Assembly (NCBI RefSeq): GCF_013205025.1
Contig: NZ_JABMLE010000003.1
Coordinates: 651,332 to 715,331, forward strand
From: Rathayibacter sp. VKM Ac-2857
GTDB lineage: Bacteria; Actinomycetota; Actinomycetes; Actinomycetales; Microbacteriaceae
DNA length: 64,000 bases
Direction: 5' to 3'
The translations under genes and the position numbers were made by a program. Position 1 is the stretch's first letter, and each line of letters opens with the position of its first letter. The notes under the pieces are model-generated. The model had not been told where the DNA came from. It did no database searches and was given only the letters and a program-made list of their open reading frames with translations. Positions 23,657 to 36,990 of this stretch are shown here, piece after piece.

Positions 23657-24722
23657 TCACTTGACGACCGTCTTGGCCGCGCTGGTCTTGCTCAGCGTCG
23701 TGTAGCCCGCCTTCGTGCCGGTGACCGTCACCGTGATCGCCTTGCCCGCGTCCGCCGACACCGTCTTGTAGGTCGCGGACGTCGCGCCCGAGATCGCCGT
23801 GCCGCCGCGCTTCCACTGGTAGCTCAGCGCGACGGGCGCCGGCGACCAGGTGCCCGGCACCGCGGTGAGGGTCTGGCCGACCTTCGCCGTGCCGGTGATC
23901 GTCGGGGTCGCGCCGGTCAGCACGCCGCCGGTGACGACCGCCGTGGTGGCGCTGGTCTTGGTGGCGGGGGAGTAGCCGGTCCTGGTGGAGGTGACGCTCA
24001 CGGTGATCGTGGCGCCGGCGTCCGAGGCCTTGAGCACGTAGGTCTTCGCGGTGGCGCCGGTGATGTACGTGCCGCCGTTCTTCTTCCACTGGTAGCTCAG
24101 CGTCGTGCCGGAGTCCCAGGTGCCCGGGTTCGCGGTGAGGGTCGAGCCGACCTTCGTCGTGCCGGTGATCGTCGGCGTCGGCATGAGCGTCTGCAGTGCT
24201 GCCTTCGCCGTGACCGCGGCGCTGGTCTTGGTGACCGCGGTGTAGCCGGACTTGGTGCCGGTGACGGCGACGGTGATCGCCGCGCCGGCGTCGGCCGCGA
24301 CGAGCGTGTAGGTGCTCGCGGTCGCCCCGCTGATCGCGGTGCCGTTGCGCTGCCACTGGTACGCGAGCGTGACGGGCGCGGGCGTCCAGGTCCCGGGGAC
24401 GGCGGTCAGCTTCTGGCCGACGGTCGCGGTGCCGGTGATGGTCGGCGTCGCTCCGGTGATGACGGCGCCGTTGGTGACGGCCGCGGTCGTCGCGCTGGTC
24501 TTGGTGGCGGGGGAGTAGCCGGTCTTGGTGCCGGTGACGCTCACGGTCAGCGTCGCTCCGGCGTCGGAGGACTTGAGCACGTACGTCTTCGCGGTGGCGC
24601 CGGAGATGTAGGTGCCGCCGTTCTTCTTCCACTGGTAGCTCAGCGTCACGCCCGAGTCCCAGGTGCCCGGGTTCGCGGTGAGCGTCGACCCGACGGTGGT
24701 GCTGCCGGTGATGGTCGGCGTC
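23657..24722 (-). repeat. 543-bp tandem duplication within the Ig-like gene
   Basis: The sequence GCATNAGCGTCTGCAG recurs at 24181 and 24725, and the segments between recur with few changes. Two 543-bp (181-codon) units each encode two Ig-like repeats. The high identity implies a recent duplication and possible copy-number variation. Confidence 0.8.
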
Positions 24723-26335
24723 GGCATCAGCGTCTGCAGCGGCAGCCCGATCTGGGTGGCCGAGCTCGTGCGGGTCGCGGTCGTGTAGCCGTACTTCGTG
24801 CCGGTGACACTGACGGTGAGCGCGGTCCCGGAGTCGGCCGACGTGACGGCGTAGCTGCTCCCCGTGGCCCCCGCGATCGCGGTCCCGTTGCGCTTCCACT
24901 GGTACGCCAGCTCGACGGGCGCGGGACCCCAGTTGCCCGGGTTCGCGGTGAGCGTCCCGCCGATCGCGGAGGACCCGGTGACGGTCGGCACGGAGTTCGT
25001 GAGCGACCCCGCGGTGACGGTGACGGCGGCACTGGTGCGCGAGGCCGTCGCGTAGCCGGCCTTGGTACCGGTGACCTGCACGGTGATCGCGTTGCCGAGA
25101 TCCCACTGCGAGACGACGTACTGAGGACCGGTCGCGTCGCTGATCGGAGAGCCGTTGCTCAGCCACTGGTAGCTGAGCGCCACCGGCGAGGGGCCCCAGG
25201 TGCCGGGAACCGCGGTCAGCGTGTCACCCGCGGTCGCGGACCCGCTGATGGTCGGCGTCGGCGCGGTGAGAGTGCCGACGTTCGCGAGCGTCAGAACGAA
25301 GTCGCCCTCGTGGAAGGAGTAGTTGCCCACCTGGATGAAATACGTCCTACCGGCTGTCGCGGGGAACTCGACATTGGCGCGGTCAGCGGAGTGCTCGTTG
25401 TACCCGGGCTCCGCATCCGCGTCTCCGCAACCGAGCTCACGACCCGGCGTCACGCCATCGGATTCGAAAACGGCGACGTTCATCGGCGAGTAGCTGTCGC
25501 CGACGTCCGCCCGCAAGCTTCCCGTGGAGGTCGCCCGGTACTTGTACCAAACCGACCCCATGAACGGGTTGTAGTCGCATCCCGCGTACGGCTGATACCA
25601 GTTGCTGTCGACCTTGAGGGTCGACCCCTCGATGGTCGCCGGGAGGGTGGAGATCGAGGAGGCCGAGGAATAAGTCGTGTTCGGGACTGCAGCGCTGGCA
25701 GAGAGGGAGAACTGCGCAGTTCCAGTCGGCACGTCCAACGAGGAGATGTCGGAGCTGACCTGGAAGTAGTAGGTGCGGCCGGCCTCCGCCTGCACGAAGT
25801 TCTGATCGCGGTAGCCGATCTCGGCGCAGCTGATCCGTGTCGCGTCCGTGATCGGGCCCTCGACGAAGGCGCTGGTGATCTGTGTGTACCCCGGCGACTT
25901 CCCGTTGAAGGTCAGCGTCTGCCGCTTGGTCGAGACGTACTTGAACCAGATCGAGCTGTCTCCGCCCTCGAAGTACTCGCTGTAGTCCGGATCAGTGGTG
26001 CGGCATGTTGAAATCTCGCCCTCAGACAGCGTCGCGCCCTCGTAAGGAACGCCGTACGCGGAGTACGGCAGGCTCGTGACGACGGTCGCGTTCTCGCGCA
26101 GGTCGTTCGCGGGCGGCGTCGCGGCGACCAGCGCACGCGGCTCGGCGGCCTGCGGCGCGGCCTGGCGGGCGGCCGGTTCCTTCGTGTGCCACTCCCCGGA
26201 GGTCTCCGAGACCGGCGCGGCCGACGGTGCGGCTTCCGCGGCAGCCGCCGCCGGAGCGACCAGCAGCCCGAAGCCGACCGCGAGGGCGGTGGCGAGGGCG
26301 AGGACCCGCGCGCGGGCGGGACGGTGTTCGGGCAT
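23657..26335 (-). CDS. large secreted protein with six Ig-like repeats
   Basis: This is an 892-residue exported protein starting at the ATG at 26333-26335, with GGAG seven bases upstream. A signal peptide (ARVLALATALAVGFGLLVAPAA) is followed by an Ala/Pro-rich stretch. Two beta-rich domains of about 150 residues then occur, each with a WFKYVSTKRQT/VWYKYRATSTG motif and a GRTYYFQV/GRTYFIQVG motif, like pre-peptidase C-terminal domains. The last 530 residues are six tandem Ig-like repeats of about 90 residues: TPTI(S/T)G, LTAxPGxW, YQW, GAT, GTKxGY. Repeats 3-4 and 5-6 are nearly identical pairs. There is no sortase or membrane anchor, so it is probably released or held to the surface non-covalently. 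Adhesion or surface coating is a guess. Confidence 0.85.
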   Translation of the reverse strand: MPEHRPARARVLALATALAVGFGLLVAPAAAAAEAAPSAAPVSETSGEWHTKEPAARQAAPQAAEPRALVAATPPANDLRENATVVTSLPYSAYGVPYEGATLSEGEISTCRTTDPDYSEYFEGGDSSIWFKYVSTKRQTLTFNGKSPGYTQITSAFVEGPITDATRISCAEIGYRDQNFVQAEAGRTYYFQVSSDISSLDVPTGTAQFSLSASAAVPNTTYSSASSISTLPATIEGSTLKVDSNWYQPYAGCDYNPFMGSVWYKYRATSTGSLRADVGDSYSPMNVAVFESDGVTPGRELGCGDADAEPGYNEHSADRANVEFPATAGRTYFIQVGNYSFHEGDFVLTLANVGTLTAPTPTISGSATAGDTLTAVPGTWGPSPVALSYQWLSNGSPISDATGPQYVVSQWDLGNAITVQVTGTKAGYATASRTSAAVTVTAGSLTNSVPTVTGSSAIGGTLTANPGNWGPAPVELAYQWKRNGTAIAGATGSSYAVTSADSGTALTVSVTGTKYGYTTATRTSSATQIGLPLQTLMPTPTITGSTTVGSTLTANPGTWDSGVTLSYQWKKNGGTYISGATAKTYVLKSSDAGATLTVSVTGTKTGYSPATKTSATTAAVTNGAVITGATPTITGTATVGQKLTAVPGTWTPAPVTLAYQWQRNGTAISGATASTYTLVAADAGAAITVAVTGTKSGYTAVTKTSAAVTAKAALQTLMPTPTITGTTKVGSTLTANPGTWDSGTTLSYQWKKNGGTYITGATAKTYVLKASDAGATITVSVTSTRTGYSPATKTSATTAVVTGGVLTGATPTITGTAKVGQTLTAVPGTWSPAPVALSYQWKRGGTAISGATSATYKTVSADAGKAITVTVTGTKAGYTTLSKTSAAKTVVK

Positions 26336-26514
26336 GACGACTCCAGGGCGAGCGGCGAGCGGGTGGCAGTGCGGTGCCTGCGGGACACGAGCGCGGCTGA
26401 ACGACGTCCGTCGAGAAGGCTCCTCAGTGTGATGAGATTCACAGGGAGCGGATACCACCCGTTCGGGGCGGCCTGGAGAGAACTACTCAGTGGCGCACTG
26501 CTCGGCGCCGGCCA

Positions 26515-26706
26515 CTACTCGAGCGGATACGCGCGCCCGTTCACCAGCAGGGTGTCGCCCGCGGCGCTGTCCGGCCCGATGTGGTCCTCGAGCGACGCGG
26601 CGGCCGTGTCGGCGGCGGCGCCCTGGGCGACTGCTCCGGTCGAGAGCAGCAGGCCGCAGGCCAGTGCGGTGATCACGGTCGTGCGGTTGCTGGGCATGCG
26701 GTTCAT
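26515..26706 (-). CDS. small secreted protein, unknown
   Basis: This is a 63-residue ORF with a convincing signal peptide (NRTTVITALACGLLLSTGAVAQGAAA). The mature part is only about 32 acidic residues, ending LLVNGRAYPLE. It starts at the ATG at 26704-26706 and ends with TAG at 26515-26517. It matches no family I know. It is upstream of, and on the same strand as, the Ig-like protein, separated by about 180 bases. Confidence 0.5.
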   Translation of the reverse strand: MNRMPSNRTTVITALACGLLLSTGAVAQGAAADTAAASLEDHIGPDSAAGDTLLVNGRAYPLE

Positions 26707-26859
26707 CGGCGTCGTCCTTGGCGTCGTGGCGGTCGCCGCCCCGGGGTGTGGGAGCGGTTTCAGAACGCTCCGAGCCTACGGCTCCGACCCGATGCGCCGC
26801 CTGGCACCTTTCTGGGGTTCCCCTGTGCGCCTTCTGGTTCGGCAGCACGGAGGCCCCGG

Positions 26860-27549
26860 TCACGGACGTGCGGAGATCGTGTCCGACGCTCGGCTCGTAC
26901 TGACGATCTGATCTCCGAGGTCCGGGGAGAGCGAGCGGGCGACGAAGACGAGCGAGCGACGGATGTTCTCGGGACGGCGGTCGAACACGGACTCGTTGTG
27001 AGCGAGACGGTTCCTGACATCTCGTAGGTCCGTAAGGGCGGCATGGATCTTCACACGATCGGTGCCGGGCCGGTACGCCCGATTCAGGGCCGGTACCCAG
27101 AGCGTCTTCTCGTGGAGCCCGTCCGAGAGGTACGTCCAGAAGCCGAACATCAGTTCCGCGATGACCTTGCCGCGGGGCGTCCGCCCGCCGGCGGTGTACC
27201 TCGCGTACCTGCGGGCGGTCTTGATCGCGGAGCGCGGGGTCGCGTTCTTGTCCTGAGGCACACCGTGAGAGTCGAGAGCCAGGTGCACGGGCAGTAGTTG
27301 CTCATACGTCGCTTGCTCGATCCAGTCGCGGCCGTGAATGGCAGGGTGGGCGAGCAGCGCTCGGTCGTAGGCGTTCCGCAGTCCTACCTCGAGGTGACCG
27401 AGGTCGTGGAGCAGCTCCGCCGACAGGCGCGCGTTCCACTCGTAGAAGGCGAGAGCGCGAGCGTGGTCACCCCCTGCAGCCCGCACATATTTCGCGAAGC
27501 GCTCGACAGTGAGCCATTCGACGACCCATGGTCCAGCGCTGCTCGGCAT
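26860..27549 (-). CDS. Abi-like protein with a HEPN RNase motif
   Basis: This is a 229-residue protein of the Abi_2/AbiF-like group (PF07751). WLTVERFAKYVRAAGGD and ALAFYEWNARLSAELLHDLGHLEVGLRNAYD form the typical N-terminus. The C-terminal part has IAELMFGFWTYLSDG, then LRDVRNRLAHNESVF, in which R-N-x3-H is the HEPN ribonuclease signature. Such proteins cause abortive infection or growth arrest by cutting RNA and are kept inactive by an antitoxin. The ATG at 27547-27549 was chosen for the GGAGGG six bases upstream; the in-frame start at 27636 would read through the upstream region. No antitoxin protein gene is adjacent, but a candidate small RNA is divergently encoded directly upstream. Confidence 0.8.
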   Translation of the reverse strand: MPSSAGPWVVEWLTVERFAKYVRAAGGDHARALAFYEWNARLSAELLHDLGHLEVGLRNAYDRALLAHPAIHGRDWIEQATYEQLLPVHLALDSHGVPQDKNATPRSAIKTARRYARYTAGGRTPRGKVIAELMFGFWTYLSDGLHEKTLWVPALNRAYRPGTDRVKIHAALTDLRDVRNRLAHNESVFDRRPENIRRSLVFVARSLSPDLGDQIVSTSRASDTISARP

Positions 27550-27566
27550 CCTCCGCCCTCCCGGCG

Positions 27567-27673
27567 TACAATCGATCCATCGAGAGCCTTTGATGACCGA
27601 TATCGCCGCGGCGACACGTCCCTCTGGCCACGACACGGGAACCCCGGTATCAGGCTACTGACCCGGGGTTTTC
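27567..27673 (+). ncRNA. candidate small RNA divergent from the Abi gene
   Basis: On the plus strand a consensus-like -10 box TACAAT (27567-27572) is followed about 68 bases later by a canonical intrinsic terminator. The terminator has stem AACCCCGG (27640-27647) and CCGGGGTT (27663-27670), an inner TCAG/CTGA stem and a T-run to 27672. This predicts an RNA of about 95 bases from near 27579. No ORF occupies it. Structured RNAs upstream of abiF-type genes have been described (the abiF RNA motif), and this may be a relative acting as the RNA antitoxin. No -35 box is obvious. Confidence 0.45.
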
Positions 27674-27730
27674 CTCTGCCCGCCCTGTCGCCCCGTGCTG
27701 CCGCGCGCACGCCCGCCGTAGGCTGGCCGG

Positions 27731-28582
27731 ATGACGTCCCGGGTGCGCCTCCTGCTGGCCTCGTCGCATCCCGGGCCGACCGTCACCGTCACCGTGCTGG
27801 CGACCGTGCTCGCCGCCGCGTCCGGGCACGCAGCAGGGATCGTCGTCCTCGTGGCGCTCGCCGTGTTCGCCGGGCAGCTCTCGATCGGGCTGGCGAACGA
27901 CTGGATCGACGCCGACCGCGACCGCGCCGTCGGCCGCACCGACAAGCCCGTCGCGCTCGGCCGGATCAGCGTCGGCGAGGTCCGCGCCGCCGCACTCGGC
28001 ACCGCCGCCGTCGCCGTCGTGCTCTCGCTCCTGCTCGGGCCGGTCGCCGCCGTCGCGCACCTCGTGCTCGTCGCCGCGGGCTGGGCCTACGACGCCGGGC
28101 TCAAGCGCACCGCGTTCTCGGTCGTGCCGTTCCTCGTCGCCTTCGGGCTGCTCCCCGTCGTCTCCGTCGCGGCGGGCGGCGGGCAGCTGCCGGCCTGGTG
28201 GGCGATCGCCACGGGCGCGGTCTTCGGCTTCGCGATCCACTGCACCAACGTGCTCCCCGACCTCGTCGACGACGCGGCGACCGGCGTCCGCGGCTTCCCG
28301 CACCGCCTCGGCCTGCGGCTCTCCGGCGTCGTCGCCTTCGGCTCGCTGATGCTCGGCGCGGTGCTCGTGCTGCTCGGCCAGGTCGTCGGCGACGATCCGG
28401 TCGGCGGCGCGGGAGTCGTCCTCGCCGTCGTCGCGACCGTCGCGGTCCTCGTCCTCGCGGCCGCCGGCATCCGCCTGGTGCTCACCGGCCCGCCGACCCG
28501 CACGCTGTTCCGCCTGGTGATCGCCTCCTCGCTCGTCCTCGTCGTCGAGCTCGGCCTGGCGGGCGCGCGGCTGGTCGCCTGA
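27731..28582 (+). CDS. UbiA family prenyltransferase
   Basis: This is a 283-residue integral membrane prenyltransferase with about eight or nine helices. Both Asp-rich motifs of the family are present: NDWIDADRDRAVGRTDKP at residues about 56-73 and NVLPDLVDDAATGVRGFP at about 172-190. These bind Mg and the prenyl diphosphate. UbiA-type proteins make quinones, hemes, carotenoid modifications or decaprenyl-phosphoribose. The FAD monooxygenase that follows, convergently, might act on the same lipid, but the orientation argues against an operon. The precise product cannot be assigned from sequence. Confidence 0.85.
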   Translation: MTSRVRLLLASSHPGPTVTVTVLATVLAAASGHAAGIVVLVALAVFAGQLSIGLANDWIDADRDRAVGRTDKPVALGRISVGEVRAAALGTAAVAVVLSLLLGPVAAVAHLVLVAAGWAYDAGLKRTAFSVVPFLVAFGLLPVVSVAAGGGQLPAWWAIATGAVFGFAIHCTNVLPDLVDDAATGVRGFPHRLGLRLSGVVAFGSLMLGAVLVLLGQVVGDDPVGGAGVVLAVVATVAVLVLAAAGIRLVLTGPPTRTLFRLVIASSLVLVVELGLAGARLVA

Positions 28583-28609
28583 GCAGCCCCGGCAGCCCGA
28601 CCAGCAGCC

Positions 28610-29797
28610 CTACGACCACCGCATCGAGTACACCCGCGCCAGCAGGTCCGAGGTCGGCAGCGCCAGCAGCGCCCGCAGCAGTCCCTCGCGCCCGAGCAGC
28701 CCCGCGCCGCCGGCCGGCCGCCCCGCCGCCATGTTCAGCTCGGCCTGCCGCGCCGCCCGCCGGGCCACCCGCATCCGCCGCCGGGCGAACGCGGGGAACG
28801 GCCCTGCCGAACCGCTCCGCACCGCGTCCGCGAGCAGCGGCGCGAGTTCGGCCGCGTCCAGCCAGCCCAGGTTCATCCCCTGCCCGCCGATCGGGCTGAT
28901 TTCGTGCGCCGCATCCCCGATCAGGACCACCCGCCCGACGCCGATCCGCTCCGCCGCCCGCCGCCGCACCTGGAAGCCGCTGAGCATCGTGCAGGTCGCC
29001 GGGTCGGGCTCCGCGCCGGTCCGCGCCCGCACCACGGTGCTGAGCGCCAGGGCGGCGACCGGATCGGGCGCCGCATCCGGCCGCCACGCGGGCGCCACCA
29101 GATCGTCACCGGCGAGCGCCACGTAGCGCCGCCGCCCGCCCGGCAGCGGGAACGACTCCACCACGCCCTCCGGCCCGACGTCGACGAGCGCCGACGACGC
29201 CCGCGCGGCCGGCTCCGGGTCGGCGAAGTCGCCCATCACGTAGGAGTCCGGGTAGTCGCGGCCCGTGCTGCGGATCCCGAGCAGCTCGCGCACCGCGCTG
29301 CGCGCCCCGTCCGCGCCGACGACGAAGGCGGCGCGGACCGTCACCGGCGCACCGTGCTCATCCGCCCCGGTCGCGTCGACGTGGTCGCGCCCGCGGGCTA
29401 GCCCGGTCAGCGTGACGCCCGAGCGCAGTGCGTCCGGCGCGACCTCGCGAAGCCGCTCGCGCAGGATCGACTCGGTGCGGTGCTGATCGAGGGTGACCAC
29501 GTACGGATGCGTCCGCGAGGCCCGCGCGAACGACAGCGCCCCGAGCACCCGGCGCCGGCTCACCGCGACGCCCTCGGCGACCCGGACGCCCTCGGCGAGG
29601 ATCCGCTCGGTCGCGCCGACCTCGGCCATCGCGTCGAGCGAGGGCGGATGGATGCCGATCGCCCGCGAGCCGGCGGGCACCGCGGTCCGCCGCTCCCAGA
29701 CCTGCACGTCGACCCCGCGGCGGGCGAGCAGCGCGCCGAGCAGCACGCCGACCGGTCCGCCGCCGACGACCAGCACGTCGGTCCGCTGCAGGCTCAT
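28610..29797 (-). CDS. FAD-dependent monooxygenase (PHBH fold)
   Basis: This is a 395-residue flavoprotein. Near the N-terminus is the Rossmann fingerprint [21 protein letters not shown] followed by the ribose-binding acidic residue in VQVWERR. The middle motif [16 protein letters not shown] is the DG motif of class A monooxygenases. The late [22 protein letters not shown] is the GD motif contacting the flavin ribityl chain. Such enzymes hydroxylate aromatic or isoprenoid substrates with NAD(P)H and oxygen. It starts at the ATG at 29795-29797; longer frames upstream lack support. It is convergent with the UbiA gene. Confidence 0.85.
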
Positions 29798-36546: not shown

Positions 36547-36616
36547 CGCGACCGGATCGCTGCCCAGGGCCTGCCCAGGGCGCGGTGACAGGCTGGCGGG
36601 AGCCGATGACGGCGAT

Positions 36617-36659
36617 CCGGACGAGGGAGCAGTACCCGGCAGCACGACAAGACTGACTC
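36617..36659 (+). promoter_or_regulatory. guanidine-III (ykkC-III) riboswitch aptamer
   Basis: The sequence contains the near-invariant blocks CCGGACGAGG (36617-36626), GTACCCGG (36632-36639) and ACAAGAC (36647-36653) of the guanidine-III class, in order and at normal spacing. GAGCAGT at 36627-36633 can pair with ACTG-A-CTC at 36652-36659, with one bulged A. That gives the class-specific pseudoknot. The gene behind it is an SMR exporter of the guanidinium type, as expected for this class. Confidence 0.9.
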
Positions 36660-36672
36660 GAAGGAGTGAGTC
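36655..36672 (+). promoter_or_regulatory. Shine-Dalgarno-sequestering hairpin of the riboswitch
   Basis: GACTC (36655-36659) can pair with GAGTC (36668-36672), leaving AAGGAG, the exporter's ribosome-binding site, in the loop. GACTC is also the 3' strand of the aptamer pseudoknot, so the two structures exclude each other. Guanidine binding would free the ribosome-binding site, giving an ON switch at translation. Confidence 0.7.
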
Positions 36673-36675
36673 GTC

Positions 36676-36990
36676 GTGTCCTGGATCGTCCTGATCGTCT
36701 CCGGTGTCCTCGAGGCCGTGTGGGCCACCGCCCTCGGCAAGTCGGAGGGGTTCACCCGCCTCTGGCCGACCGTGATCTTCGGAGTCGGCGTCGTCGCCAG
36801 CCTGTCCGGGCTGGCCTACGCGATGCGCGACCTGCCCACCGGAACGGCCTACGCCGTCTGGGTCGGGATCGGCGCCTCGCTGACCGTGCTCTACGGCATG
36901 TTCTTCGGCGGCGAGGGCTTCTCGCTCGTGCGCACGCTGCTGGTCCTGGGGATCGTCGGCTGCGTGATCGGGCTGAAGCTGCTGCACTGA
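36676..36990 (+). CDS. gdx: SMR family guanidinium exporter (Gdx/SugE type)
   Basis: This is a 104-residue protein with four transmembrane helices. The small multidrug resistance signature includes the catalytic glutamate at position 13 (SGVLEAVWATALGKSEGFT), and GTAYAVWVGIGASLTVLYGMFFGGEGFS is characteristic of the Gdx/SugE subgroup. These proteins work as antiparallel dimers exchanging guanidinium for protons. The preceding guanidine-III riboswitch supports this substrate strongly. Start GTG 36676 follows AAGGAG at 36661-36666, the element masked by the riboswitch hairpin. Confidence 0.95.
   Translation: MSWIVLIVSGVLEAVWATALGKSEGFTRLWPTVIFGVGVVASLSGLAYAMRDLPTGTAYAVWVGIGASLTVLYGMFFGGEGFSLVRTLLVLGIVGCVIGLKLLH

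Follow-up and report, generated by a model that had tools for sequence, protein, structure and literature searches.

An Abi gene of Rathayibacter and a conserved divergent RNA that is probably its antitoxin

The annotation 'Abi family protein' is carried by many genes, which often resemble toxins lacking an antitoxin. One such gene lies within a 64,000-nucleotide stretch of Rathayibacter sp. VKM Ac-2857 (contig NZ_JABMLE010000003.1, positions 651,332 to 715,331, forward strand), which is referred to here as the window and whose own numbering is used throughout. The gene, on the minus strand at 26860..27549, is predicted to encode an Abi_2/AbiF-like HEPN RNase of 229 amino acids (aa). A first-pass annotation of the sequence remarked that no antitoxin protein gene adjoins it, and none was seen when its neighbours were inspected. 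What does adjoin it, on the opposite strand, is a putative non-coding RNA of ~95 nt at 27579..27673, which recurs beside related Abi genes. With a probability of about 0.8 the two form a two-part module resembling a toxin-antitoxin system, in which the AbiF-like HEPN RNase is paired with a divergent, abiF-like RNA antitoxin.

The Abi gene and the divergent RNA

The mechanical open reading frame (ORF) of the Abi gene starts from GTG at 27636, but homologues place the start at the ATG at 27549, which gives the 229-aa product. The protein carries the R-polar-xxx-H motif of HEPN proteins as RNRLAH (catalytic motif, residues 179-184, 26998..27015 on the minus strand), and R179, N180, R181, A183 and H184 are nearly invariant among 24 Abi homologues. 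The match to Pfam PF07751 reaches 22.9 bits (E 1.2e-4), below the gathering score of 25.6. The structural model of the protein has the AbiF fold, with 8VZ6, an AbiF bound to RNA, as its best solved neighbour. The protein also matches the PADLOC model PD-T4-5 (E 2.4e-9, 34.9 bits, in a library that gives no cut-off), and a Cas13e model touches it at E 0.064 only.

Upstream of this gene the first-pass annotation had described a TACAAT box on the opposite strand, followed by about 95 protein-free bases that end in a textbook intrinsic terminator, and most of this has held up. The box, at 27567..27572 (+), is the -10 element of the sole sigma-70 site that a consensus scan found in 26500-28500 (TCGGCA-18-TACAAT, 9/12 matches; mean 0.0 in 50 shuffles, sd 0.2), and it sits 17 nt from the ATG of abi at a position that is conserved across loci; the -35 half of the promoter is poor. 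The RNA is most likely made from this promoter as 27579-27673 (+), with a 5' end that is placed from the -10 element, and similarity to the sister genome G009 begins at 27578. It ends in a hairpin and U-run at 27640..27672, in which an outer stem (27640-27647/27663-27670) and an inner CAG/CUG stem (27651-27653/27658-27660) enclose a conserved UAU ... A internal loop, with the U-run at 27669-27672; in full the 3' hairpin reads AACCCCGG-UAU-CAG-GCUA-CUG-A-CCCGGGGUU, then UUUUCC. That this hairpin acts as a terminator is plausible, although 'textbook' was generous, as it has four U and an internal loop, and a terminator scan that demanded at least 5 T and allowed no internal loop listed none. The 95 nt fold with a z-score of -1.87, and 8/200 shuffles fold equally well. 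This is weak on its own, and the case for the RNA rests on comparative evidence.

Conservation, structure and strand of the RNA

Two RNA family models, R1 and R2, were seeded from loci found in this work. When R1 alone was run over 296 genomes of the class it gave 28 matches in 17 genomes, 23 of which lie 38-289 nt upstream of an Abi gene identified by a separate protein profile, in all 23 cases on the opposite strand. Seven of the 28 are the seeds themselves, and 16 of the other 21 adjoin an Abi gene (one of these, L103, is identical to a seed). The five matches with no Abi gene in the fetched flanks (L086, L097, L098, L100, L102) may be antitoxins that stand alone, RNAs that partner unknown genes, or remnants; L086 and L102 have strong R1 scores and, by eye, promoter-like sites. 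Over the same genomes R2 gave 10 matches at E <= 0.01, of which two are seeds (the window, matched at 27581-27673 with 72.3 bits, and G502), three adjoin Abi genes (G646, G375, G606) and five are weak (L117-L121), probably due to chance, with no Abi gene that the profile could detect. Beyond the seeds, the bit scores are 90.6, 82.5, 78.1 and 76.8 for R2 at L144, L143, L141 and L142 and 35.8, 34.4 and 29.9 at L056, L145 and L057, and for R1 they are 53.4 at L146, 38.0 at L139 and 24.8 at L138; R1 found nothing upstream of the Abi genes of L140 and L147. Conservation of the hairpin upstream of homologous genes, on which the first-pass annotation had staked its proposal, is thus present.

Computation shows the RNA to be conserved and structured, with a defined strand and promoter geometry, and to be associated with abi and inherited with it. 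The scan for homologues yielded 42 loci, to which scans of the genus and of the class added a few and another 29, and in most of them a -10 box and an RNA hairpin are seen, by eye and by script, on the strand opposite abi. Where the core of the RNA was located automatically, TANNNT stands 16-21 nt before it in 49/56 loci and at no other place within the 45 nt examined (chance ~0.011 per position), although these counts are not independent events because many of the loci are closely related to one another (L061 is identical to L080). The seven misses comprise three loci where the upstream sequence was too short in the script and TANNNT is present (L009, L012, L013), two mislocated cores (L056, L057) and two loci without TANNNT (L047, L059); upstream sequence was equally short for the window, L011 and L014, which are not among the 56 but each have a TANNNT. 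In L071, L072, L081 and L082 a TTGACA lies 16 nt before the -10 element.

The core hairpin of the window (27586..27628, +), supported by pair counts in alignments A6 and A9, consists of P1 (27586-27588/27626-27628), a three-base-pair helix P1b, GAC/GUC (27595-27597/27618-27620), a loop CGAU (27598-27601), P2 (27603-27607/27610-27614) and AC at 27616-27617. Across loci the order is P1, the 3-bp helix, CNCU, a P2 hairpin or short loop, A(U/C) and the helix partners, with the 3-bp helix being GAC/GUC in the clade of the window and GGC, CGC or GAU elsewhere, and the CNCU position reading CGAU in the window and CGGU in L056, L057 and L145. Two forms are found, type A with the core hairpin and a separate terminator hairpin (the window, L009-L015, L055 and the plasmid loci L141-L144), and type B with the core inside the terminator stem. 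A scan with this grammar found the core on the divergent strand in 52/76 loci and on the abi strand in 11 (shuffles, 20 rounds: mean 14.9 loci, maximum 20), but it is descriptive only because it was derived from the same loci, and it fails to pick up type A loci whose P1 is short, the window among them.

Covariation in homologous loci, which the first-pass annotation had proposed to look for, was found. In A9, which holds 18 matches to the type A model (one of them, L146, really being type B) and, having been aligned to the model, leans towards it, 95.8% of cells pair, 58 cells are double-changed against 18.5 in shuffles, 13/21 pairs vary on both sides, and the 3' hairpin has double changes in 6/8 outer pairs. 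Such cells number 17 in the MAFFT alignment A4 (5.4 in shuffles) and 23 in A6 (8.3 in shuffles); A2 and A3 were left out of the pair counts, P1 being out of register in them. A literal search for the letters of the hairpin in relatives failed because the letters change whilst the structure stays.

The same alignment bears on the strand, as A9 read on the divergent strand has 29 G-U cells and 2 A-C cells (10 of the 29 fall at one pair), the reverse of what an RNA on the abi strand would give. Together with the position of the promoter and the T-rich tails found after the hairpin when the divergent strand is read (maximum T per 8 nt averaging 4.5, against 3.0; 51 loci), this ratio in our view settles the direction of the RNA as far as computation can. 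In L063 and L066 a different conserved hairpin with a strong terminator lies, by eye, seemingly on the abi strand, which suggests that the orientation of the RNA flips within the family.

The arrangement has several variants. Tandem copies of the RNA occur at two loci of G502 (L107/L108, 66 nt apart; L101/L110, 65 nt) and one of G581 (L109/L111, 205 nt), with both copies at L107 and L101 apparently lying behind a single TTGACA-16-TANNNT promoter. The genome of the window has two further Abi paralogues, L006 and L007, each with a divergent hairpin and -10 box of other RNA types, the hairpin of L006 having been seen by eye and being without a clear U-run. Plasmids from Rhodococcus, Mycolicibacterium, Streptomyces and other hosts carry relatives too, with matches in 271 records. 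On the Klebsiella plasmids of L136 and L137 a divergent promoter-like site and a terminator can be seen by eye, with an RNA unlike the core grammar; these Abi genes are on IncF plasmids, and the L137 stretch is mostly covered in 167/259 matching records.

Co-inheritance, loss and the inserted module

When the type of the RNA core was placed on the tree of Abi proteins (75 rows) it needed 5 changes, compared with 25.6 for shuffled labels (0/200 as low), with the GAC type and the type A form needing 1 change each; the labels came from the grammar scan, model matches and inspection by eye, 17 rows were unlabelled, and the tree is a quick one with weak deep branches. The losses follow a pattern. 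In the clade of the window L020 and L022 have neither the RNA nor the N-terminus of Abi, and in L032 both the RNA and the segment bearing the HEPN motif are missing, so that 3/3 loci without the RNA have a broken Abi gene, a count that covers closer clade members only and leaves out L033, L045 and L059. Conversely the RNA is present where the Abi gene is damaged or missing, namely in L036, in L144 (two ORFs) and in G009, which has kept the RNA (L123, 1351-1443) and ubiA whilst abi is gone. No intact toxin without an RNA was seen among the closer clade members. That the RNA alone is tolerated and the intact toxin alone is not seen is what one would expect if the RNA were an antitoxin.

These counts are low, and two of the losses could each have been one contiguous deletion. 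RNA and intact toxin are associated at p 0.001 (Fisher, 29 rows), or 0.012 if L033, L045 and L059 are taken as intact genes without an RNA. An automatic table of all 75 rows gave p 0.13, which is not significant, because RNAs of distant clades escape the models and part of the labelling is wrong (a hand-typed list missed L060, and the motif expression misflags L007, whose domain is split, and L073, L078 and L083, which have RNRIMH). The RNA of G009 has 3 substitutions in ~95 bases, all of which fit the fold, but this does not point to strong extra constraint since the whole match of 1,424 bases is 93.7% identical. At L092 (genome G572, C23) an RNA-bearing Abi gene is broken by one stop codon.

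Comparison with G007 (L125) delimits the module, as window 26515-26831 and 27716-29000 match stretches that are 13 bases apart there (locus 1156-1472 and 1486-2764). The insert of the window (26832..27715) is therefore ~884 bp and holds abi and the RNA and little else. In genome G010 a fragment of Abi (L004, 1501-1668), 61% identical over 58 residues, lies inside an unrelated open frame and is an apparent relic of a lost module.

The neighbours of the pair are ubiA (27731-28582, +), an Ig-like repeat protein and an ORF of 63 aa that matches nothing in Pfam. A 933-aa protein at 23657-26458 (-) has weak matches to several Ig-like domains and is likely a secreted or surface protein. Farther away a guanidine-III riboswitch (Rfam RF01763) at 36597-36662 (+) lies just before an ORF (36676-36990) that we take to resemble a small multidrug-resistance (SMR/Gdx-type) transporter.

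Known relatives, rival explanations and significance

The closest parallel is AbiF, which likewise joins an Abi_2-type HEPN protein of similar fold to a small structured RNA just upstream (RF03085; RCd22 of C. difficile; PbAbiF-ncRNA, PDB 8VZ6), the window protein being shorter at 229 aa, against ~300 for the 8VZ6 chain. The suggestion of the first-pass annotation, a non-coding RNA inhibitor 'related to the abiF RNA motif or new', is largely supported: a conserved, structured, gene-associated RNA is there, and the Rfam search that the annotation had proposed does not recognise it as abiF. RF03085 (gathering score 37 bits) has no match at E <= 10 in window 27400-27800 and none in the window's own genome, nor has it any in 19, 16 and 7 related loci (E <= 1, 5 and 5), and at lax thresholds no Rfam family reaches its gathering score on the RNA. 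By eye the abiF consensus, CCCGCC-A-AGC-CUCU-CAACG-AU-GCU-CAAAUC-GGCGGG, resembles the core of the window RNA in its order of parts (P1, 3-bp helix, CUCU, loop, AU, helix, P1). Most relatives of the window RNA differ from it by an additional P2 hairpin in the core and by a P1b that reads GAC/GUC (or GGC, CGC, GAU). A distant kinship of the two RNAs is likely, but it falls short of being demonstrated because neither model scores the other's sequences, R1 giving no score to the abiF sites of L051-L054. The abiF RNA is on the abi strand in L051 and L054 (2/4 RF03085 loci with a profile-found gene), whereas the window type is divergent in 23/23 R1 matches that adjoin an Abi gene. RF03085 was found in 4/396 genomes of the phylum (1 over the cut-off), as against R1 in 17/296 of the class; samples and thresholds differ, but in this phylum the divergent arrangement may be the more frequent one.

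According to PMC12373285, RCd22 is ~100-130 nt long with a predicted terminator, lies upstream of abiF in the same direction, is partly co-transcribed with it by read-through, and neutralises the AbiF protein by direct binding. The window RNA differs in having its own promoter and pointing away from the toxin, thus RNA and toxin levels can be set separately. PD-T4-5, which acts against phages by abortive infection, is a plasmid-borne distant relative of AbiF/D that is listed among toxin-antitoxin-like systems, and the sections available of that paper do not mention an RNA partner (PMC9519451). Upstream of the E. coli plasmid gene nearest to that model (L135, E 1e-133, near full-length) there is no recognisable RNA of the window kind; an RNAI gene (Rfam RF00106; L135 693-793, +) lies directly upstream on the abi strand. 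No description of the divergent RNA was found in the part of the open literature that was available, and PMC12165695 does not mention AbiF or a noncoding RNA.

Type III toxin-antitoxin systems (ToxIN, TenpIN, CptIN) also have a structured RNA upstream of an RNase toxin, sometimes in tandem copies, and inhibition by direct RNA-protein binding would by analogy be expected of the window module. The window toxin is a HEPN protein, unlike the ToxN type, and its RNA, single in the window, is divergent with its own promoter and does not lead a toxin operon.

It is proposed that the minus-strand gene encodes an AbiF-like HEPN RNase and that a separate promoter facing the other way drives the ~95-nt structured RNA up to a terminator of its own. 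Binding of the RNA to the Abi protein, which is probably a dimer, most likely involves the internal loop CNNU/A(U,C) that is conserved in the core hairpin, with the 3' hairpin perhaps also in contact, and in the bound state the RNA would keep the RNase off. If phage infection or another stress were to lower the RNA or alter the complex, the RNase would be freed and the cell arrested. Binding, toxicity and a role in defence are carried over from studies of AbiF, and the inhibitor function would follow from the AbiF family (PMC12373285) together with the pattern of losses.

Other explanations have to be weighed against this. The RNA could be a type I-like antisense RNA that pairs with the 5' leader of abi mRNA and blocks expression with no binding of protein, as the divergent -10 element is only 17 nt from the abi ATG and the abi leader might extend into the RNA. 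With its start at the ATG at 27549 the abi ORF is clear of the RNA, an antisense RNA would not need one-strand G-U pairs (29:2) and covarying helices, and the characterised relative acts by protein binding (PMC12373285), which makes this unlikely. Tandem copies that recall repeats, and the view that AbiF is the ancestor of Cas13 (PMC12737573), would suit an RNA that activates or guides the RNase rather than inhibiting it. Such a role is very improbable, since the RNA occurs without a working toxin and no intact toxin without the RNA was seen among the closer clade members, which suits an inhibitor.

The RNA ends 57 nt before ubiA and runs in the same direction, so that the promoter might belong to ubiA and the hairpin might be a regulated terminator in its 5' leader. 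Yet when the 12 other genomes of the genus with ubiA (of 13) were compared with the window by blastn, similarity began only at 27716-27717 in 11 and the RNA was shared by G009 alone, whilst near the related Abi genes of L138, L139 and L144 the RNA leads into no gene because the next gene points towards it. The RNA tracks Abi genes across genomes, and a ubiA leader or attenuator is accordingly given even less credence than a Cas13-like guide. The slightest chance of all is left to a conserved element that acts on the abi strand as the leader of abi, next to an incidental divergent promoter; abiF RNAs with an identified Abi gene (L051, L054) and RCd22 (PMC12373285) do lie on that strand, but the fixed spacing of TANNNT, the 29:2 ratio and the T-rich tails all belong to the divergent one.

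It is considered rather probable, though less so than the module itself, that a large clade of AbiF-like HEPN toxins, found mainly in Actinomycetota and apparently also in Acidobacteriota, Deinococcota and Pseudomonadota, is held by an uncatalogued superfamily of RNA antitoxins. These would have descended from, or arisen in parallel to, the abiF RNA, turned to a divergent promoter of their own, and diversified with their toxins, both into mutually specific types (GAC, GC, GAU and AUU cores) and into forms that are single, tandem or fused to the terminator. Since Cas13 is considered to descend from AbiF (PMC12737573, PMC12373285), a second and differently wired RNA family for the same fold would make the co-evolution of toxin and RNA testable, including which loop binds, whether the types are orthogonal and how RNA and toxin are coupled under separate promoters. 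A partner RNA that Rfam did not recognise in these searches is given here for the whole clade with coordinates, structure models and strand, and if this reading is true it would supply the missing antitoxin of many seemingly solitary 'Abi family protein' genes.
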